Positions 6,259-26,735 of a DNA stretch of 64,000 nucleotides are shown piece after piece. A program made the position numbers and the translations under genes. The notes under the pieces were generated by a model that saw only the letters and a list, made by a program, of their open reading frames with translations, had not been told where the DNA came from and did no database searches. Each line of letters begins with the position of its first letter. Position 1 is the stretch's first letter. The DNA comes from Salipiger mangrovisoli (GTDB lineage: Bacteria > Pseudomonadota > Alphaproteobacteria > Rhodobacterales > Rhodobacteraceae): contig NZ_JADFFK010000011.1 in the NCBI RefSeq assembly GCF_015223355.1, positions 124,001 through 188,000 of the forward strand, given 5' to 3'.

Positions 6259-6728
6259 TGCGACAGTTGGCAACGACCCTCGGTCTCGTCGTCGCGCTTG
6301 TCGGCGGCATGGCCCTTGCTCAATCCGTCCGCGAGCCGGTCAGCGAATTGACCGGCCCCAGCCCCAACCCGATGGAGCCGGTCGCAGCGGCCCCGCTCGA
6401 ACGCATGGTGACCGACGACGTGCGGCTCATGCGGGCCTATCCCGAGCAGCCGCCGATCATCCCGCATTCGATCGAGGGCTACGAGCTTTCGGTCAATGCC
6501 AACCGCTGCCTGTCGTGCCACAAGCGCGAAACCTCGCTGGGCACCGGCGCACCGATGATCTCGATCACCCATTACATGACGCGCGACGCACAGATGCTCG
6601 CCGACGTCTCGCCCCGGCGCTACTTCTGCACCCAGTGCCACGTGCCGCAGGCCGACACCGCGGCGTTGATCGGCAACAGCTTCACCGACATGGCCGAGAT
6701 GGGCGCGACCGGCGCGGGGAGCGAATGA
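6258..6728 (+). CDS. napB: periplasmic nitrate reductase diheme cytochrome c subunit NapB
   Basis: A 156-residue electron-transfer subunit of NapAB. A Sec signal peptide covers about residues 1-21, ending 'GGMALAQ'. Two CXXCH heme c sites lie at 84-88 and 124-128, with 'ISITHY' histidines between them as likely distal ligands. It receives electrons from NapC and passes them to the NapA iron-sulfur cluster. The ATG overlaps the last base of the napA stop, and napC starts one base after its own stop. Confidence 0.95.
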
Positions 6729-8823: not shown

Positions 8824-9216
8824 CTAATCCTCGCGCCGCCCCGTGCCCTCTCGGTTGCCCGTGTAGTGATGCGCCAGCGGGAACTCCGGCAGCCACGGCT
8901 CGCGCCGCACCGTCCAGTTCTCGTAGCTCGGAACCAGCTGTCCCGGCGCGTCGAGCGTGCCGAGATGCAGCTCGATCTCGTCCCCGTCCACCGCAAACAC
9001 GGATGAGCCGCAGAGCGGACAGAAGTGCCGCCCGTTGTAGCCGCGCGTCTCGCCGGTCACCGTGACCGCGTGGTCCGGGAACATCGCGGCGGCATAGAAC
9101 AGCGCGCCATGATGCTTGCGGCAGTCGAGACAATGGCAGAGGCCGACCCGGTAGGGTTCACCCTCTGCCCGGATCCGGACCGCGCCGCAGAGGCAGCCGC
9201 CTTCGTGGTGTTTCAT
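8824..9216 (-). CDS. GFA family (CENP-V/GFA domain) zinc-binding protein
   Basis: A 130-residue protein of the family named after glutathione-dependent formaldehyde-activating enzyme. Cysteine motifs that bind zinc are visible: 'GGCLCG' (residues 6-11), 'CHCLDCRK' near 30 and 'CPLCGS' near 64. Most members have no proven reaction, so only a small-thiol or aldehyde-related role can be suggested. I started at the ATG at 9216, which has GGAGG about ten bases upstream; the ATG further upstream lacks a site. It lies 68 bases downstream of btuD on the same strand and might be read through from the btu operon. Confidence 0.8.
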   Translation of the reverse strand: MKHHEGGCLCGAVRIRAEGEPYRVGLCHCLDCRKHHGALFYAAAMFPDHAVTVTGETRGYNGRHFCPLCGSSVFAVDGDEIELHLGTLDAPGQLVPSYENWTVRREPWLPEFPLAHHYTGNREGTGRRED

Positions 9217-18336: not shown

Positions 18337-18370
18337 TTGACCCGACGTAGGTACTCAATAATAAAAAACC
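18337..18370 (+). promoter_or_regulatory. candidate promoter and operator half-site for UxaB-like operon
   Basis: TTGACC (18337-18342) and TAATAA (18359-18364) are separated by 16 bases, a plausible sigma-70 promoter about 45 bases before the start codon. The segment AATAATAAAAAACC (18357-18370) matches 11 of 14 bases of the inverted-repeat arm at 21507-21520 beside the GntR gene. This suggests shared control. Confidence 0.55.
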
Positions 18371-18410
18371 AAATGCGGGTGCGCCCCGCGGAGCAGGGAG
18401 GAGGAGAACC

Positions 18411-19535
18411 ATGCTCAGTACGCCGATCCTGCAATTCGGGACGAGCCGTTTTCTTCAGGCCCATGTCGATCTTTTCCTGTCCGAGGCGCTGGCGCATGGC
18501 GAGGCGCTGGGTCCGGTCACGGTGGTGCAATCTTCGGGGGACCCCGCGCGTGCCGCGCGGCTGGGTGGCCTGCTTCAGCCCGGCGGCTATCCGGTGCGCC
18601 TGAAGGGGCTGCGGGACGGTCGCACGGTGGACGAGGAGCGGCGCGTCACGAGCGTCGCCCGGACGCTCTCTACCGCCAGCGATATGGACCTGTTGCTGGA
18701 GATGATGGTGGATGAGGTGCAAATCATCCTGTCCAACACCGCCGACGCGGGTTTCCGCGCCCAGCCCGCCGATGCATCCGGCGAGACGCGCCCGCTTCAG
18801 GAGATGTCCTTTCCGGGCAAGCTGTCCCGGCTGCTGCTGGCGCGCCACGAGGCGGGCGGCACGCGGATCCAGGTGATGCCGACCGAGCTGGTGCAGAACA
18901 ACGGCGACGTGCTGCGCGAACTTGTGCTCGCCGCCTCGGCGCACCTGCCGCAGGCATTCCGTGACTGGCTCAGTACCGATGTGCTCTGGGTCAATTCCTT
19001 GGTGGACCGCATCGTCTCGGAGCCGCTGGAGCCCGCCGGGGCCGTGGCCGAGCCATATGCGCTCTGGGCGATCGAGGACCGCCCCGGCCTGATCCTGCCC
19101 TGCGCCCATCCCGATGTGCAGGTGGTTGGCGATCTGGACAAAGTGGCGCGGCTGAAGCTTTTCGTGCTCAACCTCGGTCACAGCTGGATGGTCTCGCGCT
19201 GGCTGGACGAGGGGTGCGACGGCCCGGCGCTGGTGCGCGACGTGCTGGCCGATCCCAGCCGCCGCGCGGCGCTCGAGGGACTCTATCAAGACGAGGTGCT
19301 GCCCGGTTTTGCCGCGGCGGGAGAGGGCGCGGCCGCGGCTGCCTATGTGGCCGAGACGCTGGACCGCTTCGCCAACCCTTTCCTCGACCACGCCTTGGCA
19401 GACATCGCGCAGAACCATTCCGAGAAACTTGATCGCCGGATCGCCGCCTTTGTCACTTGGGCGCGCGGGCAGGGGGATCGCACGGCAAAGCCGCGGCTCG
19501 AGGCCGCGCTGGCAGGCAGGGAGGAAACCGCATGA
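18411..19535 (+). CDS. UxaB-like mannitol dehydrogenase family oxidoreductase
   Basis: A 374-residue NAD-dependent polyol dehydrogenase family protein, with an N-terminal Rossmann domain and a C-terminal mannitol-dehydrogenase domain. Motifs are 'ILQFGTSRFLQAHVDLFL' at the start, 'PTELVQNNGD' near 163 and 'LNLGHSW' near 254. These resemble tagaturonate/fructuronate reductases (UxaB/UxuB), although the protein is about 100 residues shorter. Likely role: reduction of D-tagaturonate to D-altronate. GGAGGAGAA precedes the ATG. Its TGA overlaps the next ATG by four bases. Confidence 0.7.
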   Translation: MLSTPILQFGTSRFLQAHVDLFLSEALAHGEALGPVTVVQSSGDPARAARLGGLLQPGGYPVRLKGLRDGRTVDEERRVTSVARTLSTASDMDLLLEMMVDEVQIILSNTADAGFRAQPADASGETRPLQEMSFPGKLSRLLLARHEAGGTRIQVMPTELVQNNGDVLRELVLAASAHLPQAFRDWLSTDVLWVNSLVDRIVSEPLEPAGAVAEPYALWAIEDRPGLILPCAHPDVQVVGDLDKVARLKLFVLNLGHSWMVSRWLDEGCDGPALVRDVLADPSRRAALEGLYQDEVLPGFAAAGEGAAAAAYVAETLDRFANPFLDHALADIAQNHSEKLDRRIAAFVTWARGQGDRTAKPRLEAALAGREETA

Positions 19536-20503
19536 AGACCAGACAGATCGGCAAGACGGGCGTCGAGGTGACCGAAGTTTCCTTCGGCTGTGCCAGCATC
19601 GGCAATCTTTACCGGAAGGTGAGCGATGCCGAGGCCGAAGCGGTCCTGCAAACCGCCTGGGACGCGGGCATCCGGTATTTCGACACCGCACCGCACTACG
19701 GCCGGGGCCTGTCCGAGACCCGTCTCGGGCGCTTCCTGAAGGGGCGCGACCGGGACAGCTACGCGCTGTCGTCGAAACTTGGCCGGGTGCTCTCGCCCGC
19801 GCCCGAGCCCATCGCCGAGGCCGACAGCTACATCGAGCCGCTGCCCAACCTGATGCGCTACGACTACTCGGGCGACGGCATCCGTGAGAGCTTTGAACAG
19901 GCCTGCGGGCGGCTCGGGGTTACTCGGCTCGACATCGCCTACGTGCACGATATCGGGGCCTATACCCATGGCGAAGACACCAACGCGCGGCATATGGAGG
20001 CGTTTTTCGGGAGCGGTTACGAAGCGCTGGTCACGCTCAAGGAGGCGGGAAAGATCGGCGCCTTCGGACTGGGTGTCAACGAGTGCCAGGTCTGCCTCGA
20101 CGTGATGGATCACGGGCCGATCGACGCCATCCTGCTGGCCGGGCGGCTGACCCTGCTCGACCGCTCGGCCGAGGAGGCGCTGGTGCCGCGCTGCCGTGAA
20201 GCGGGCACGAGTCTTGTGCTGGGCGGGGTGTTCAACTCGGGGATCCTTGCGACGGGCCCGGTCGAGGGCGCGACCTACGACTACGGTCCCGCGCCGAAGG
20301 AGGTGCTAGACCGCGTCGCCGCACTGCAGGCCGAAGCCGAGAGCCACGGCATCCCGCTTGCCACCGCCGCCTTGCATTTCGCGCTGCGCCATCCGGCCAC
20401 CGCCTCGGTGCTGCTGGGCACGGCAAAAGCGTCGAGCCTGACGCGCAACCTCGATGCGATCCAGCGCGACTTGCCCGCGGGCGCAGAGGCGCTTTTCGTC
20501 TGA
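19532..20503 (+). CDS. aldo/keto reductase, L-fucose/L-galactose dehydrogenase-like
   Basis: A 323-residue TIM-barrel oxidoreductase. Family motifs are 'DTAPHYGRGLSETRLGRFL' (residues 51-69), 'RLDIAYVHDIG' and 'RHPATASVLLGTAK' near the C-terminus. This subgroup includes L-fucose and L-galactose 1-dehydrogenases and pyridoxal 4-dehydrogenase. They oxidise the aldose at C1 to a lactone with NAD(P). Next to a UxaB-like enzyme and near an LgoD-like dehydrogenase, a sugar C1 dehydrogenase fits best. It is translationally coupled to the preceding gene. Confidence 0.78.
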   Translation: MKTRQIGKTGVEVTEVSFGCASIGNLYRKVSDAEAEAVLQTAWDAGIRYFDTAPHYGRGLSETRLGRFLKGRDRDSYALSSKLGRVLSPAPEPIAEADSYIEPLPNLMRYDYSGDGIRESFEQACGRLGVTRLDIAYVHDIGAYTHGEDTNARHMEAFFGSGYEALVTLKEAGKIGAFGLGVNECQVCLDVMDHGPIDAILLAGRLTLLDRSAEEALVPRCREAGTSLVLGGVFNSGILATGPVEGATYDYGPAPKEVLDRVAALQAEAESHGIPLATAALHFALRHPATASVLLGTAKASSLTRNLDAIQRDLPAGAEALFV

Positions 20504-20506
20504 CCC

Positions 20507-21409
20507 TCAGCCGAGCCGGTGGTCTCGAAGCGAGGAGAGCAGCGTTGTCTTCGACGTCAGAAGATGCCGCCGCGCAGCCCGCTCCGAGGCCGCCGCGTCG
20601 CGCAGAAGCAGCGCGTCGAGCAGCGCCAGGTGTTCGCCGATCGCGGCTTGGTTCCTGTGTCTTTCCAATGTTTTGTCCCACATGTAGTGGTAGTGGAAAA
20701 TCAGCGCGATCACCTTCTGGAACTCGGCCACGAAGCGGTTCTGCACCACCGAGTTGATCGTTGCGTGAAAGCGTTCGTCGAGCGGCGAGAAGTCATGGAA
20801 GTCGGTCTCGATCCGGTCGAGCAGGGAAAGGTGGTCCTCGCGCAGCGCCTCCAACCTCGGCCAGATCGGGTGGCTGCCGGGCAGGGTGACGAGCTGTTGC
20901 ACCGCGTTCAGCTCCAGCAGGCTGCGGAACTCGGACAGCTCGACGGCGAAGCTGGCGGTGAAGCCGAGCAGCAGCCATCCGCCCTTCTTGCGCCGCTCGA
21001 CAAGACCGAAGCGGCTGAGTCCGGCAAGGAACTCCTGCAAGAGCTGCGGCGTCACGCCGAACTCGCGCGACAGGGCGGCAACGTTGAGCGGCGTTCCCGC
21101 CGGGACGTCGAAGCGCAGGATCCATTCGAGAAAGCGCTGCTCCAGCGTCTCGGGGTCTTCGGTCTGCATGTCGAGCGGCATCCGGTCGCCGGGCAGCGGC
21201 GCGCGCAGCAGGGTCTTGTCACGCCCGTCCCAGCGAATGAGCCGGTCGTCCGACGCCCGCTGAAGGCAAGCGCGTACCACCGTTCGGCTGACGCCGAGCC
21301 GGTCGCCGAGCAGGTTTTCCGACGGCAGAGTGTCCGTTGGCGACAGCTCGGCGCAGAAGTCGAGCAGGGCGTTGTAGGTCTCGCGGAAGCGGTTGTCACT
21401 GCGGGCCAT
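20507..21409 (-). CDS. GntR family regulator with two winged-helix domains and FCD-like domain
   Basis: A 300-residue DNA-binding protein. Residues about 8-70 form a GntR winged helix ('LPSENLLGDRLGVSRTVVRA'). Residues about 88-150 form a second winged-helix-like unit ('LSREFGVTPQLLQEFL' then 'FGLVERRKKGGWLL'). The remainder is helical and FCD-like ('LDERFHATI'). Two DNA-binding domains in one chain are unusual for GntR. It faces the ABC transporter operon across a 213-base region holding nested palindromes, so it very likely controls that operon and itself. Confidence 0.8.
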   Translation of the reverse strand: MARSDNRFRETYNALLDFCAELSPTDTLPSENLLGDRLGVSRTVVRACLQRASDDRLIRWDGRDKTLLRAPLPGDRMPLDMQTEDPETLEQRFLEWILRFDVPAGTPLNVAALSREFGVTPQLLQEFLAGLSRFGLVERRKKGGWLLLGFTASFAVELSEFRSLLELNAVQQLVTLPGSHPIWPRLEALREDHLSLLDRIETDFHDFSPLDERFHATINSVVQNRFVAEFQKVIALIFHYHYMWDKTLERHRNQAAIGEHLALLDALLLRDAAASERAARRHLLTSKTTLLSSLRDHRLG

Positions 21410-21505
21410 GCGTCAGCGGCCTGCAATGCGGTGTGGCGGAACGAATGTCATCTGGTCTTCCTCGGTGGCTGCCCGTCTTTCCGGTTGGTTTTTTACCGAT
21501 GAATT

Positions 21506-21564
21506 AAATTATTAAAAACACTTGACCGCGGTCAAGCATCGCGACACCCTGTTTTTAATAATTT
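21506..21564. promoter_or_regulatory. nested palindromic operator in divergent GntR/ABC promoter region
   Basis: A perfect 15-bp inverted repeat has arms at 21506-21520 (AAATTATTAAAAACA) and 21550-21564. Between them, next to the left arm, sits a perfect 16-bp palindrome, CTTGACCGCGGTCAAG (21521-21536). On the minus strand TTGACC (21536-21531) lies 16 bases from AATAAT, a fair promoter for the GntR gene. The symmetry and location point to the binding site of the adjacent regulator. Confidence 0.75.
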
Positions 21565-21622
21565 TGTGCCGAGCGGAGGAGGCGCCGCGGATCGGCACTG
21601 TCGGAAGACACCGGGAGGACCC

Positions 21623-22651
21623 ATGGCAAATATCTCGCAGCCGTCGCAAGGCGCCTGGAGCCGTCTGTTGCCCAGCAACTCGGCGACCGCCTTTCATCGC
21701 GTCTCGGCGCTGCTGACGCTGGCGATCCTGGTGATCGCCTTCGCCTTCGCCAGCCCCGCCTTCCTGTCAGTGAACAACACGCTGACGATCCTTCTGCAGA
21801 CCTCGGTGATCGGGCTGCTCGGCATCGGCATGACCATGGTGATCATCACCGGCGGGATCGACCTTTCCGTGGGGTCGGTGCTGGCGCTTTCGGGCACCGT
21901 CACCGGCATGATGGTCAAGGCGGGCGTGCCGGTGGTGCCCGCGATGATGCTCGGCGTCTGCATGGGCGCGGCCTGCGGTCTCTTCAACGGCTTCGTCGTC
22001 ACCAAGATGAAGATCACCCCCTTCGTGGCGACGCTCGGCATGATGCTGATCGCCCGCGGCGCGGCGCTTCAGCTGACCGGCGCGGCACCGATTTCGCAAC
22101 TGGGCGAGGCCTTTGGCGTGCTTGGCAACGGCGCGCTCTTCCGCGTGGTCGAGATGCAGCCCAATGGCTTTCCGAAGGTGATCTTCCCCGGCATCCCCTA
22201 TCCGGCGATCCTGCTGGTCATCGTCGCCATCGTGGCCTCCTACATGCTGCGCCGCCGGGCCATCGGCCGTCACATCTATGCCACCGGATCGAACGAGGAG
22301 GCGGCGCGGCTTTCGGGCGTGCTGGTCGACCGCACCAAGCTGATTGCCTACACGCTCTCGGGCGCCCTGGCAGGGGTGGCGGGCAACGTGCTGATGTCGC
22401 GGCTGATCACCGCCCAGCCAAGCGAGGGCGTGATGTACGAGCTCGACGCCATCGCCGCGGCGGTGATCGGGGGTGCCTCGCTGATGGGCGGCGTCGGCGG
22501 CATCTCGGGCACGATGATCGGCGCCTTCATCATCGGCGTGCTGCGGAACGGGCTGAACATGGGCGGCGTGTCGTCCTTCATCCAGCAGATTGTCATCGGT
22601 TTCGTCGTCATCGGCGCCGTCTACATCGACCAGCTGCGCAACCGCCGCTGA
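21623..22651 (+). CDS. sugar ABC transporter permease, RbsC type
   Basis: A 342-residue inner-membrane protein with about ten hydrophobic segments, of the ribose/xylose importer class. Motifs 'GIGMTMVIITGGIDLSVGS' near residue 70 and the EAA-type loop 'GSNEEAARLSGVLVD' near 217 are characteristic. It forms the sugar channel with the binding protein and ATPase encoded next. GGGAGG lies six bases before the ATG. It is the first gene of the operon facing the GntR regulator. Confidence 0.9.
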   Translation: MANISQPSQGAWSRLLPSNSATAFHRVSALLTLAILVIAFAFASPAFLSVNNTLTILLQTSVIGLLGIGMTMVIITGGIDLSVGSVLALSGTVTGMMVKAGVPVVPAMMLGVCMGAACGLFNGFVVTKMKITPFVATLGMMLIARGAALQLTGAAPISQLGEAFGVLGNGALFRVVEMQPNGFPKVIFPGIPYPAILLVIVAIVASYMLRRRAIGRHIYATGSNEEAARLSGVLVDRTKLIAYTLSGALAGVAGNVLMSRLITAQPSEGVMYELDAIAAAVIGGASLMGGVGGISGTMIGAFIIGVLRNGLNMGGVSSFIQQIVIGFVVIGAVYIDQLRNRR

Positions 22652-22719
22652 GGCGTGGCGCGGTGCTGAAGATCCCAGAATTTTCCAACGAAGACTGTCA
22701 TCTAGGGAGGAAAGACAGG

Positions 22720-23664
22720 ATGAACGGAAGACTGACCAAGCTCATGGCGGCAAGCGCGCTGGCGCTCACCGCGGCGGGCGCCGCCCAGGCGGGCGAGATC
22801 GCGGTGATCGTCAAGACCACCAGCTCGAACTTCTGGCAGAACGTGAACCTCGGCGCCACGGCGGCGATCGAGGGCCAGTCCGAGCACACGATGAGCTTCG
22901 ACGGCCCGGCCACCGAGAGCGCCATCGCCGATCAGGTGAACCTCGTCGAGAACGCCATCAACCGCGGCGTCGCGGGCATCGTGCTGGCCCCCTCGGACCC
23001 CGAGGCGCTGGCCCCGGCGGTGAAGCGCGCCTTTGAATCGGCGATCCCCGTGGTGATCATCGACTCTGCGCTGGCCGATAGCGCCAAGGGCACCTACCAG
23101 GCGTTCCTCTCGACCGACAATTGCGCCGCGGGCGAGCTGGTCGCCAGCGCGATGATCGACAAGGTCGGCACCGAGGGCAAGGTCGCGGTCATGTCCTATG
23201 TCGCGGGCGTCGGCTCAGAGATCGGGCGCGTCGGCTGCTTCAGCGACTACCTGAAGGCCAACTCCTCGCTGGAGATCGTCGGGCCGTACTACTCGCAGTC
23301 GCAGATGGCCAACGCGCTGAACCAGACCACCGACGTGCTGGCGGCGAACCCCGACCTCGTGGGCATCTTCGGCGCCAACGAGCCCACCGCCGTGGGCATG
23401 GGCCGCGCCATCGAGCAGGCGGGCAAGGCGGGTCAGATCGCCGCCTTCGGCTTCGACGGCAACGCCGACCTGCAGGAGTTCGTGCGCTCGGGCACGCTCG
23501 ACGCCATCGCGGTGCAGGGCTCGTTCCAGATGGGCGAGCTGGGCGTCAACGCGGTGATGGACGTGCTGGCGGGCAAGACCGTCGAGAGCTTCATCGACAC
23601 CGGCGTGGTGCTGGTCACCAAGGACAACATCGACGCCCCCGAGGCGCAGAACGTCCTTTACTGA
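22720..23664 (+). CDS. sugar ABC transporter periplasmic binding protein, RbsB type
   Basis: A 314-residue periplasmic protein with a Sec signal (about 1-23, ending 'AAQAG'). The family-1 sugar-binding fold is seen in 'EIAVIVKTTSSNFWQNV', 'GIVLAPSDPEALAPAVKRA', 'VVIIDS' and 'AAFGFDGN'. The ligand is unknown; neighbours suggest an L-sugar or sugar acid. I chose the ATG at 22720 because of the signal peptide and the GGGAGG site. A strong hairpin follows the stop. Confidence 0.9.
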   Translation: MNGRLTKLMAASALALTAAGAAQAGEIAVIVKTTSSNFWQNVNLGATAAIEGQSEHTMSFDGPATESAIADQVNLVENAINRGVAGIVLAPSDPEALAPAVKRAFESAIPVVIIDSALADSAKGTYQAFLSTDNCAAGELVASAMIDKVGTEGKVAVMSYVAGVGSEIGRVGCFSDYLKANSSLEIVGPYYSQSQMANALNQTTDVLAANPDLVGIFGANEPTAVGMGRAIEQAGKAGQIAAFGFDGNADLQEFVRSGTLDAIAVQGSFQMGELGVNAVMDVLAGKTVESFIDTGVVLVTKDNIDAPEAQNVLY

Positions 23665-23670
23665 GCCATC

Positions 23671-23697
23671 CGGCCGGGGCCCGCGCGGCCCCGGCCG
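23671..23697 (+). terminator. intercistronic hairpin after sugar-binding protein gene
   Basis: An 11-bp perfect stem (arms 23671-23681 and 23687-23697) with a CGCGC loop, seven bases past the binding-protein stop and before the ATPase gene. There is no T tract. In such operons a hairpin here usually raises binding-protein mRNA over transporter mRNA by partial termination or by blocking decay. Confidence 0.65.
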
Positions 23698-23732
23698 ATC
23701 CGTTTGAAGACCCCATTCGAGGACTGCCCAGC

Positions 23733-24533
23733 ATGAGCCAGACACAGCCCGCCCCCGGGGCTCCGGCCCCCCTTGTCGAGATGCGCGGCATCGAGAAGCA
23801 TTTCGGCGGCGTGGTGGCCGTCAACGGCGTCTCGCTCGATCTGATGCCCGGCGAGGTGGTCGGCGTGCTCGGCCACAACGGCGCGGGCAAGTCCTGCCTG
23901 ATGCGTATCCTGTCGGGGGCCATGGCGCCGAGCCACGGCGAGATCCGCATCGGCGGCGAGGTGGTCGAGATGGGCTCGCCGCAGGACGCGCGGGCGCATG
24001 GGGTCGAGACCATCTACCAGACGCTGGCGCTGGCCGATCACCTTGACGCACCGGCGAACCTGTTCCTTGGGCGCGAGCTGAAGACCCGCTTCGGCAACCT
24101 CGACGACAAGCGCATGCTGGCCGAGGCGCGCAAGGTGCTGGCGACGCTGAACCCGAATTTCACCAACCTCAAGGACCCGGTGTCGAGCCTCTCGGGCGGC
24201 CAGCGGCAGGTCATCGCGATTGCCCGCGCGATCTATTTCGACGTGAAGATCCTGATCATGGACGAGCCCACCGCGGCGCTCGGCCCGTCGGAGACGGCGA
24301 TGGTCGCCGATCTCATCCGCAAGCTGCGCGCGCAGGGGATCGGCATCTTCCTCGTCAGCCACGACATGCACGACGTCTTCGACCTCTGCGACCGGGTGGT
24401 GGTGATGAACAAGGGCAAGCTTGTCGGCGCCCACCCCATCGACGAGGTGCACAAGGATGATATCCTGTCGCTGATCATCAAGGGCGAGCTGCCGACCGAC
24501 TGGCGGCCGCGCAACCTGGAGGCGGCGCAATGA
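23733..24533 (+). CDS. sugar ABC transporter ATPase, single-domain (FrcA type)
   Basis: A 266-residue ATPase with Walker A 'GHNGAGKS' near residue 50, signature 'LSGGQRQVIAIARAIYF', Walker B 'ILIMDEPTAALG' and switch histidine in 'VSHDMHDVFD'. Most ribose-type systems use a double ATPase of about 500 residues; this one has a single domain, as in the fructose FrcBCA system. It is transcribed with the permease and binding protein and overlaps the dehydrogenase gene by four bases. Confidence 0.9.
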   Translation: MSQTQPAPGAPAPLVEMRGIEKHFGGVVAVNGVSLDLMPGEVVGVLGHNGAGKSCLMRILSGAMAPSHGEIRIGGEVVEMGSPQDARAHGVETIYQTLALADHLDAPANLFLGRELKTRFGNLDDKRMLAEARKVLATLNPNFTNLKDPVSSLSGGQRQVIAIARAIYFDVKILIMDEPTAALGPSETAMVADLIRKLRAQGIGIFLVSHDMHDVFDLCDRVVVMNKGKLVGAHPIDEVHKDDILSLIIKGELPTDWRPRNLEAAQ

Positions 24534-25552
24534 ACAGCCATACCGAGACCATGCTCTGCGGCACCTGCGTGGAGCCCGGAAAATTCGCGCTCGAGGCGCG
24601 GCCGAAGCCTGCCAGCGCGCCCGAGGGCTGGGTGCTGGTGGACATCGCGGCGGTGGGCCTCTGCGGTACCGACTATCACATCCTCGAGGGCAAGCACCCC
24701 TACCTGAACTATCCCCGGGTGATCGGTCACGAGCTTTCGGGCCATGTCGCCGAGGATGCGGCGGGCTGGTCGGCGGGCGATCTGGTGGTGATCAACCCCT
24801 ATCTTTCCTGCGGCGAGTGCCGGGCCTGCAAGCGTGGCAAGCCCAACTGCTGCATGTCCATCGAAGTTCTGGGCGTGCACCGCGACGGCGGGCTCTGTGC
24901 GCGCATCGCGGTGCCGGCGGGCAACCTCTATGCCGCCGAGGGGCTGCGGCCCGAGCAGGCGGCGATGGTCGAATTCCTCGCCATCGGCGCCCATGCGGTC
25001 AGCCGCTCGGGGATTCAGGCCGGGGATTGGGTGCTGGTCACCGGGGCGGGACCGATCGGTCTCGGCACCGCGCTCTTTGCCCGGCTCGAAGGGGCCGAGG
25101 TGCACCTGATGGACCTCAGCCCGGCGCGGCTCGAACAGGCGCAGCGGCTCTTCGGGTTCGAGCACCTGCATGTGGCGGGTGAGCCCATTCTGGAAGGAGA
25201 CCTGTCGGACGGCTTCGACCTGATCTTCGATGCCACCGGCAACGCCAGGGCCATCGAGGCGGGCTTCCCGCTTCTGGCGCATGGCTCGACCTACGTGCTG
25301 GTCAGCGTGGTGAAGGATCAGATCACCTTCGAGGACGCGGAGTTCCACAAGCGCGAGACCCGGATCATCGGCTCGCGCAACGCGCTGAAGTCCGATTTCG
25401 AGCGGGTGATGGCGGCGATCGCGGCGGGCGACATCGACACCGATGCGCTGCTTTCGGAGCGCATCGCGCTGGCCGATCTGCCGGAGCGCTTTCCGCTGCT
25501 GGCCAAGGACCGCGACGCGCTGATCAAGGCGGTGGTCACGCCTCTGGCGTGA
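24530..25552 (+). CDS. LgoD-like zinc alcohol dehydrogenase (L-galactonate 5-dehydrogenase)
   Basis: A 340-residue medium-chain dehydrogenase. Catalytic zinc ligands are expected in 'GLCGTDYH' and 'GHELSGH'. Structural zinc cysteines lie in 'CGECRACKRGKPNCC'. The NAD site is 'GAGPIGLG'. The segments 'VLGVHRDGG', 'FDATGNARAI' and 'EFHKRETRIIGSRNAL' closely recall E. coli LgoD (YjjN), which oxidises L-galactonate to D-tagaturonate. Coupling to the transporter by a four-base overlap says its substrate is, or derives from, the imported compound. The exact substrate is inferred. Confidence 0.72.
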   Translation: MNSHTETMLCGTCVEPGKFALEARPKPASAPEGWVLVDIAAVGLCGTDYHILEGKHPYLNYPRVIGHELSGHVAEDAAGWSAGDLVVINPYLSCGECRACKRGKPNCCMSIEVLGVHRDGGLCARIAVPAGNLYAAEGLRPEQAAMVEFLAIGAHAVSRSGIQAGDWVLVTGAGPIGLGTALFARLEGAEVHLMDLSPARLEQAQRLFGFEHLHVAGEPILEGDLSDGFDLIFDATGNARAIEAGFPLLAHGSTYVLVSVVKDQITFEDAEFHKRETRIIGSRNALKSDFERVMAAIAAGDIDTDALLSERIALADLPERFPLLAKDRDALIKAVVTPLA

Positions 25553-25650: not shown

Positions 25651-25692
25651 ATGACCCGATCCGCGACCCCGATGCCCGCAGGACGCGCCTGA
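25651..25692 (+). CDS. 13-residue leader ORF coupled to idnD
   Basis: A short open frame, MTRSATPMPAGRA, starts at 25651 with a well-placed GAGGAGA site. Its TGA overlaps the ATG of idnD (TGATG). The good ribosome binding site therefore belongs to this mini-ORF and not to idnD, which seems to depend on coupled re-initiation. It could be a leader peptide or the scar of a deleted upstream gene. Confidence 0.45.
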   Translation: MTRSATPMPAGRA

Positions 25693-26735
25693 TGGAGGCC
25701 GTCGTCATCCACGCCCCGAAGGACCTGCGGCTCGACACCATGCAGGGCGCCCCGACCCCCGGACCGGGCGAGGTGCGTATCGCGGTCAGCCATGGCGGCA
25801 TCTGCGGCTCGGATCTGCACTACTACCTGCACGGTGGCTTCGGCACGATCCGCATCCGCGAGCCCATGGCGCTGGGGCACGAGGTCTCGGGGATCATTAC
25901 CGACGTTGGCGCCGGGGTCAGCGGGCTGTCGGAAGGCGACCGCGTGGCGATCAACCCCTCGCGCCCTTGCAATGATTGCGAGTACTGCCTGCGCGGTATG
26001 GCCAACCATTGCCTCGACATGCGTTTTGCCGGCTCGGCCATGCGCTTTCCGCACGAGCAGGGGTTCTTCCGCGCGCAGCTGACGCTGCCGGCGCGGCAGG
26101 CGGTGCGGCTGTCGCACAAGGCCGACCTTGCGCTCACCGCCATGTCCGAGCCGCTGGCGGTCTGCCTGCACGCGGTGGCGCAGGCGGGAAGCCTGATCGG
26201 CAAGCGCGTGGCGGTCTCGGGCTGCGGTCCCATCGGGTGCCTGACCATCGCGGCGGCGAAGCTCGCCGGAGCCGAGGAGATCGTGGCGACGGATATTTCC
26301 GCCTCTGCGCTCGAGGTGGCGAAGGTGATGGGCGCGGACCGGGTGATCAACCTTGCCGGGACTGACGGCGCTCTGGAGCCGTTGCAGGCGGGCAAGGGGC
26401 AGGTGGACGTGCTGTTCGAATGCTCGGGGGCACCGGCGGCGGTGGTCGCGGGCTGCGCGATCCTGCGCCCGCGGGGCAAGATGGTGACCGTGGGCCTCGG
26501 GCCGGAAACGCCGCTGCCGATGACGGTGATCGTCGCCAAGGAATTGCGGCTCATGGGGAGCTTCCGCTTCGATCCCGAGTTCGCCACGGCGGCGCGGCTG
26601 ATCGACAGCGGGCGGCTCGATCTCAAGCCGCTGCTCACCGGCGTGCTGCCGGTGGCGCAGGCACAGGAGGCCTTCGAACTGGCCGCCGACAAGAGCCGCG
26701 CGATGAAGGTGCAGATCGCCTTCCCGGCGCCCTGA
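25692..26735 (+). CDS. idnD: L-idonate 5-dehydrogenase
   Basis: A 347-residue zinc-dependent dehydrogenase that interconverts L-idonate and 5-keto-D-gluconate. The N-terminal block 'GGICGSDLHYYLHGGFGTIR' is close to diagnostic for IdnD. Structural zinc cysteines lie in 'CNDCEYCLRGMANHC', and the nucleotide site is 'GCGPIGC'. It lies 139 bases after the LgoD-like gene, so it may be a separate unit of the same sugar-acid region. Its stop abuts the stop of the convergent sitD (TGATCA). Confidence 0.88.
   Translation: MEAVVIHAPKDLRLDTMQGAPTPGPGEVRIAVSHGGICGSDLHYYLHGGFGTIRIREPMALGHEVSGIITDVGAGVSGLSEGDRVAINPSRPCNDCEYCLRGMANHCLDMRFAGSAMRFPHEQGFFRAQLTLPARQAVRLSHKADLALTAMSEPLAVCLHAVAQAGSLIGKRVAVSGCGPIGCLTIAAAKLAGAEEIVATDISASALEVAKVMGADRVINLAGTDGALEPLQAGKGQVDVLFECSGAPAAVVAGCAILRPRGKMVTVGLGPETPLPMTVIVAKELRLMGSFRFDPEFATAARLIDSGRLDLKPLLTGVLPVAQAQEAFELAADKSRAMKVQIAFPAP

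Follow-up and report, generated by a model that had tools for sequence, protein, structure and literature searches.

The 64-kb window analyzed here is part of the 6.35-Mb genome of Salipiger mangrovisoli (G000), which is close to Alloyangia pacifica, and contains two predicted operons on either side of a divergent regulator gene. One encodes a UxaB-like reductase and an aldo/keto reductase (AKR), and the other a permease, a sugar-binding protein, an ATPase and an LgoD-like dehydrogenase. Judging from sequence comparison, the two operons probably form a local LgoR-type regulon for the uptake of L-galactose by an ATP-binding cassette (ABC) transporter and its conversion to 2-keto-3-deoxy-D-gluconate (KDG).

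Under this scenario, the CUT2-type ABC transporter would import L-galactose and the AKR would oxidize it to L-galactono-lactone, which could open either spontaneously or through the action of an unlinked lactonase. Oxidation of L-galactonate at C5 by the LgoD-like enzyme would then yield D-tagaturonate, which the UxaB-like enzyme would reduce to D-altronate, so that this pair of enzymes inverts C5. The final dehydration to KDG would be catalyzed by a UxaA-family dehydratase, whose gene is linked in 19 of the 32 importer loci examined but lies on a different contig in the S. mangrovisoli genome. The regulator is predicted to occupy three copies of the word GTTTTTWATWATT, of which two lie at the divergent promoters of the transporter and regulator genes and one at the promoter of the uxaB-like gene, and to be released by a pathway metabolite. 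The importer and the AKR might serve L-fucose as well.

Enzymes and transporter components

The LgoD-like protein (MDR1; 24530-25552, + strand), a zinc-dependent medium-chain dehydrogenase/reductase (MDR), is the candidate L-galactonate 5-dehydrogenase. It shares 40% identity with Escherichia coli LgoD (237 bits over 339 aa), compared to 29% and 107 bits for the neighboring MDR of the window, the one paralog used for comparison. Its homologs from a locus with a tripartite ATP-independent periplasmic (TRAP) transporter and from Allorhizobium reach 42%, beside the 40% of the window enzyme. The best NCBIfam model, PRK10083, gives 167 bits, under its cut-off of 376. The GLCGTD, GHE and four-cysteine motifs, which we take to be those of the zinc ligands, are all present.

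The UxaB-like reductase (18411-19535, + strand; 374 aa, Mannitol_dh) scores 188.7 bits with the tagaturonate reductase model (NF002969), not reaching the cut-off of 359, and 50.7 bits with the fructuronate reductase model, also below cut-off; it is thus best described as only UxaB-like, rather than UxuB-like. The protein is about 110 residues shorter at the C-terminus than E. coli UxaB (483 aa) and retains the K-x4-N-x2-H motif (KLFVLNLGH, residues 249-257), presumably the catalytic one.

For the AKR (19532-20503, + strand), the five best distinct chains among the solved structures are all L-galactose dehydrogenases, so that this protein appears to be a candidate L-galactose (L-fucose) 1-dehydrogenase. 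It is 91% and 89% identical to two Alloyangia pacifica records and contains D51, Y56, K82 and H139 in matching motifs, which we assume to represent the Asp-Tyr-Lys-His tetrad of this superfamily. The solved relatives do not fix the sugar because a similar AKR is described as acting also on L-fucose and D-arabinose (PMC6336799). The assignments of the LgoD-like, UxaB-like and AKR proteins made in the original prediction are largely upheld by these comparisons as predictions of enzyme type.

The transporter consists of an RbsC-type CUT2 permease (21623-22651), a Peripla_BP_4 sugar-binding protein (22720-23664) and an RbsA-like ATPase (23733-24533), all encoded on the + strand and all scoring below equivalog cut-offs. 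In a fold search, the closest solved relative of the binding protein is PDB 4WUT (Avi_5133 of Agrobacterium vitis), with 73% identity; no paper naming this structure turned up in the literature searched. The ATPase of the importer has a single domain (266 aa), compared to approximately 500 aa in CUT2 ATPase models. In both predicted operons, adjacent genes overlap by ATGA, namely the uxaB-like and AKR genes in one and the ATPase and lgoD-like genes in the other.

The regulator and its predicted operator

The divergent gene (20507-21409, - strand) encodes a protein of 300 aa that, by its sequence, is a homolog of E. coli LgoR: the two align over their full length (30% identity over 299 aa, 156 bits, 2 gap positions), both contain GntR and FCD domains, and the ExuR control yields 32 bits. 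A second LgoR-like protein (28% identical to LgoR) is encoded on contig C27 of the same genome (8298-9170 of locus L052), where its gene adjoins TRAP, uxuA, pfkB and transaldolase-family genes and is immediately preceded by a related palindromic site, GTCTTTAATGATTAAGA (20.2 bits with a 17-position matrix).

Three candidate operator sites are present at the promoters of the cluster. Sites a (GTTTTTAATAATTTAAT; 21503-21519, - strand) and b (GTTTTTAATAATTTTGT; 21551-21567, + strand) are located in the gap between the regulator and permease genes, with site b between a -35-like TTGAC (21522) and the permease start, and site c (GTTTTTTATTATTGAGT; 18353-18369, - strand) lies at the promoter of the uxaB-like/AKR operon. 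The 14-mer AATTATTAAAAACA has two exact copies in the window, at 21507-21520 (+) and 21550-21563 (-), and a third copy with three mismatches at 18357-18370; the match in 11 of 14 bases noted in the original prediction is accordingly reproduced to the base. These three matches in 64 kb, one of them by construction, the window being the source of the word, compare with a mean of 0.11 and a maximum of 2 in 100 shuffled sequences.

Only three exact matches to the word GTTTTTWATWATT exist in the entire 6.35-Mb genome, all at the promoters of the cluster. Three related genomes (G005, G011 and G015) likewise contain exactly three exact matches each, all at the same cluster, and G010 has two, along with a one-mismatch copy at the uxaB-like promoter. 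With up to one mismatch, five matches (the three exact ones and two more) are found in S. mangrovisoli compared to three for the backward-word control, and the looser word TTTTTAATAATTT, with up to two mismatches, occurs in 15 places, of which two are sites a and b and 13 are elsewhere. One of the one-mismatch sites, GTTTTTTCTTATT, is found in all five genomes of the Alloyangia group, as part of the same conserved stretch in G005, G010, G011 and G015, and is not counted among the members of the regulon; the second lies on contig C12 (74851). Because GTTTTTWATWATT is exact only three times in the genome, always at the cluster, the regulon of this type of site looks local.

The same kind of site is thus present at both operons, and the proposal that a shared site ties them together is supported. 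However, it was originally viewed as a half-site, and here the evidence points the other way: given that the copy at the uxaB-like promoter has no partner, each 14-mer looks like a complete site. For the same reason, which also applies in relatives, the 14-mers are not regarded as the two arms of a single long inverted repeat.

The regulator gene has a consensus promoter, TTGACC-16-AATAAT (21535-21508, - strand), whose second hexamer lies inside site a, which suggests that the regulator represses its own transcription. A perfect 16-base palindrome (CTTGACCGCGGTCAAG; 21521-21536) surrounds the -35-like box; it is also perfect in loci L036 and L037 and imperfect in L035, and only the TTGAC is retained in L039-L041 and L043.

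Conservation of the sites

In the promoters of seven relatives, similar words were found beside the -35-like TTGAC of the permease gene, further towards the permease, and before the uxaB-like or AKR gene. Conservation was then assessed with a 13-position matrix built from the three sites of the window alone (threshold of at least 16 bits) in 26 loci that do not belong to the close Alloyangia group, of which one (L039) comes from the genus of the window, 22 had been inspected before the scan, and four (L110, L111, L114 and L115) were new. The count leaves out the close Alloyangia loci (L035-L038, L066, L067 and L116), the duplicates L074 and L082, and the loci in which no close regulator adjoins the permease (L042, L044-L051, L068, L085, L089, L091-L097, L098, L099, L112 and L113), although sites are present in L042, L068 and L089 of the latter.

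At least one site is present in the regulator/permease gap in 25 of the 26 loci, and at least two in 21; the only locus without a site in this gap is L086. The second operon is preceded by a site in 23 of the 24 loci in which such an operon was found (none was found in L043 and L115), with the single miss in L069. The density of sites is about 500 times higher in the target regions (69 in 11.9 kb) than outside (5 in 443 kb). Of the five off-target sites, two are located approximately 40-60 bases upstream of a lactonase gene (L043, 9062, with the lactonase match ending at 9002; L115, 6546, with the gene ending at 6504), which ties the lactonase step to the regulon. The remaining three precede a second LgoR-like gene (41% identity), precede a gene for a GDSL hydrolase, and lie inside a lacI gene, respectively. 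The site near the GDSL hydrolase gene (L110, 2763, Roseibium algicola) is about 30 bases upstream, so that this gene is a possible extra member of the regulon.

Among the more distant loci, L048, L049 and L050 contain GTTTTTTATAAAT as part of an AT-rich palindrome (TTTTATTTATAAAA) located in the gap that precedes the regulator gene, with a similar arrangement in L051 and a different AT-rich stretch in L047. No convincing site was seen in L044, L045, L046, L091 and L092.

Gene neighborhoods and the imported substrate

Neighborhoods were counted in the 32 non-duplicate loci that contain the binding protein, using thresholds set by the analyst. The AKR and LgoD-like genes are each present in 29 loci (both in 26), the UxaB-like gene in 20, the UxaA-family gene in 19, an Amidohydro_2 lactonase in 16, a mutarotase in 13, and genes for a short-chain dehydrogenase/reductase (SDR) and an FAH-family hydrolase together in 8. 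The AKR was the query for 18 of these loci, so that its linkage partly reflects the choice of query; among the 14 loci fetched otherwise, 11 contain the AKR, 14 the LgoD-like, 10 the UxaB-like and 5 the UxaA-family gene, and 5 the lactonase. The most complete arrangement is that in Paracoccus seriniphilus, where genes for a mutarotase, a lactonase, the UxaB-like reductase, the AKR, the regulator, the ABC transporter, the LgoD-like enzyme and an altronate dehydratase family protein form one row. A sulfatase gene is located near this cluster (L111, 229-1737) and could point to sulfated L-galactans.

The best context argument for the substrate comes from four loci that were retrieved with the regulator as the query and encode a TRAP transporter (L047, L048, L049 and L051; three of the four from the genus of the window). 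All four contain LgoD-, UxaB- and UxaA-like genes, and none contains an AKR, in accord with the fact that an acid importer needs no aldose dehydrogenase. The pairing of TRAP transporters with the lack of the AKR, as opposed to the ABC transporter with the AKR, suggests that it is the aldose that the ABC importer takes up.

The dehydratase and lactonase steps are not as readily accounted for in S. mangrovisoli itself. The UxaA-family genes of this genome are a 57% relative in a TRAP operon (contig C44) and a gene for a two-part protein (contig C13). The operator that the original prediction proposed to look for near uxaA does not appear there: no site above 14.7 bits was found around these genes (C44, 1-16000; C13, 104000-123000) with the 17-position matrix, which gives 29.6-32.9 bits for the sites of the window. 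Altronate dehydratase and lactonase genes under the same operator were not found in these stretches or by the genome-wide search for exact GTTTTTWATWATT. Comparison of 20 genus-level genomes, with the UxaA-family genes grouped by score by the analyst, showed that all five genomes with the cluster but without a linked UxaA-family gene (G000, G005, G010, G011 and G015) possess a C44-like gene. This gene is also present in G008, G009 and G014, which lack the cluster, and in G016, which has a linked UxaA-family gene.

Alternative substrates

Several observations weigh against L-galactose as the substrate. The ligand in the 4WUT structure is reportedly D-fucose. For the lactonase query, the best match in the S. 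mangrovisoli genome is 31% identical along most of the query length (36% over 80 residues); SMP-30 lactonases were not sought. The UxaB-like gene is absent within range in 12 of the 32 loci, some of which are at contig ends, and L043 and L115 encode the importer, the LgoD-like enzyme and the lactonase with its own operator-like site, with no AKR found. Two loci, L070 and L073, encode the importer, the AKR, a UxaA-family protein and an L-fucose-type SDR (and, in L073, also an FAH hydrolase), but neither an LgoD-like nor a UxaB-like protein. Finally, an unlinked fuconate-type module on C13 (L065, 7461-11036), which consists of a mutarotase-like open reading frame (ORF), the two-part UxaA-family dehydratase, an SDR and an FAH protein, could use L-fuconate made by the AKR of the window. 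In S. mangrovisoli, the AKR gene has no SDR and FAH genes linked to it; the closest FAH (73%) is encoded, along with an SDR, on C13.

One alternative is a dual L-fucose/L-galactose system, which extends the L-galactose scenario rather than competing with it, so that the odds of the two overlap; we consider it a serious possibility, if somewhat short of an even chance. Here the importer and the AKR would take both sugars, L-fuconate would be processed by a dehydratase, an SDR and an FAH protein (those of the unlinked module in S. mangrovisoli), and L-galactonate by the LgoD-, UxaB- and UxaA-like enzymes. The two sugars share the same configuration at C2-C4, and an AKR of Paraburkholderia is described as oxidizing D-arabinose, L-fucose and L-galactose (PMC6336799). 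The SDR and FAH genes occur in the same stretch in the 8 loci mentioned above. In Allorhizobium pseudoryzae, a single run joins both branches to the same importer: it encodes the permease (60% identical to that of the window), the binding protein (71%, and near-identical to 4WUT in the alignment obtained), the AKR (43%), a lactonase, a mutarotase, and UxaB-, LgoD- and UxaA-like enzymes together with an SDR, an FAH protein and an enolase-family dehydratase, the latter three being likely the L-fucose branch. Unlike in the window, the ATPase here has two domains, and the stretch examined yielded no LgoR-like gene. The C13 module itself has neither a dehydrogenase nor a transporter gene among the ORFs recognized around it, which also speaks for a dual system. 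However, the module shows no operator site in the matrix scan or among the exact copies of GTTTTTWATWATT, and the congener G010 keeps the cluster but has no two-part dehydratase. The original view of the locus as an L-galactose/L-galactonate regulon is partly supported, by homology and context, whereas the gene content of relatives keeps L-fucose in consideration.

A system for L-fucose (or D-arabinose) only, with LgoD-like and UxaB-like genes unrelated in role, is improbable. The gene complements of L070 and L073 would fit it, as would the lactonase of the relatives, which best fits the L-fuconolactonase model (209 bits; cut-off 400). In contrast, it is hard to see what purpose oxidation followed by reduction at C5 would serve for a 6-deoxy or pentonic acid; 29 of the 32 loci contain the LgoD-like gene, which in the window overlaps that of the ATPase; the four TRAP loci retain the LgoD-, UxaB- and UxaA-like genes in the absence of the AKR; and the regulator is of the LgoR type.

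Slightly less probable still is conversion of L-gulonate, via fructuronate, to mannonate. The LgoR paralog of S. mangrovisoli adjoins uxuA, and E. coli LgoD has reportedly been employed for quantification of both L-galactonate and L-gulonate (according to the title of Kuivanen and Richard 2014). However, the reductase fits the tagaturonate model better than the fructuronate one, and the dehydratase linked in the relatives belongs to the UxaA family, with no UxuA family member among the neighbors scanned in a subset of relatives. The least probable is a route for L-glucose/L-gluconate like those of Paracoccus 43P or Luteolibacter LG18: although the Luteolibacter enzymes are described as accepting substrates of two series, that of L-glucose and that of L-galactose (PMC12632266), this route requires a C4 epimerase, or else C5 reduction to D-idonate and a dedicated dehydratase, and no epimerase was recognized among the cluster genes scanned, the genome not having been searched for one.

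Comparison with known systems

L-galactose is a constituent of polysaccharides from red algae, animals and plants. The closest counterpart of the predicted L-galactose regulon is the E. coli lgoR-lgoT-lgoD locus together with uxaB and uxaA, which combines a regulator of the LgoR type (30% identity) with an enzyme of the LgoD type (40%), encoded by divergent neighbors; the UxaB-type partner is 29% identical and the UxaA-type partner of the relatives 34%. The E. coli system differs in that LgoT imports the acid and the annotation shows no aldose dehydrogenase alongside. No clear copy of the operator was visible, by eye, in the E. coli lgoR-lgoD gap.

The pathway as such is already known. In Luteolibacter, an L-galactose route with an AKR and enzymes for L-galactonate and tagaturonate is backed by assays and gene disruption (PMC12632266). 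The dual L-glucose/L-galactose cluster lguABCDEF of strain LG18 encodes an AKR, an altronate dehydratase, a tagaturonate reductase and an L-galactonate dehydrogenase, the same kinds of enzymes as here, but this verrucomicrobial cluster has a Btr-type regulator, and the available part of the paper names no ABC transporter in it. In Halomonas and Chromohalobacter, lgoD, uxaA and uxaB are found with a TRAP sugar-acid importer, that of Chromohalobacter being reported as specific for L-fuconate and L-galactonate, and genes for L-fucose and L-galactonate are mixed (PMC5507952); these loci differ in that the importer handles acids and that no ABC and AKR front end for free L-galactose features in the available part of that description. 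The comparisons with Luteolibacter and with these two genera are by description only. The D-arabinose and L-fucose pathways of Paraburkholderia and Herbaspirillum employ an AKR, a UxaA-family dehydratase, an SDR and a hydrolase, the kinds found beside the cluster in relatives, but no LgoD/UxaB pair is described in the available part of the report (PMC6336799).

As far as searched, the ABC-linked version and the operator are new: no report of a bacterial L-galactose ABC importer or of an LgoR operator was found in the open-access literature searched, in which most matches were judged by title, and beyond E. coli-wide studies the titles retrieved included none devoted to LgoR itself. It is conceivable, with odds close to but below even, that the cluster includes the first recognized bacterial ABC importer for free L-galactose. 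Its front end (importer, AKR and lactonase) would be shared with an L-fucose branch, so that one transporter feeds two stereochemically parallel pathways under the control of an LgoR-family repressor with an AT-rich operator. The replacement of TRAP (acid) by ABC (sugar) transporters under related regulators, even within a genus, would then reflect extension of an acid pathway to the sugar. The cluster would provide a candidate set of importer, regulator, operator and enzymes across many named genera and would supply a substrate for proteins labeled only as 'ribose' or general substrate-binding protein or as 'D-mannonate oxidoreductase'.

Downstream of the second operon, about 140 bases 3' of the LgoD-like gene, the window encodes an IdnD-like zinc dehydrogenase (25692-26735, + strand) that is probably not a core component. 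The gene is conserved in L035-L037 but is not counted as core because it was not found at the plasmid locus of Alloyangia pacifica T6124 (L116). It occupies the position that is held by the UxaA-family gene in relatives.

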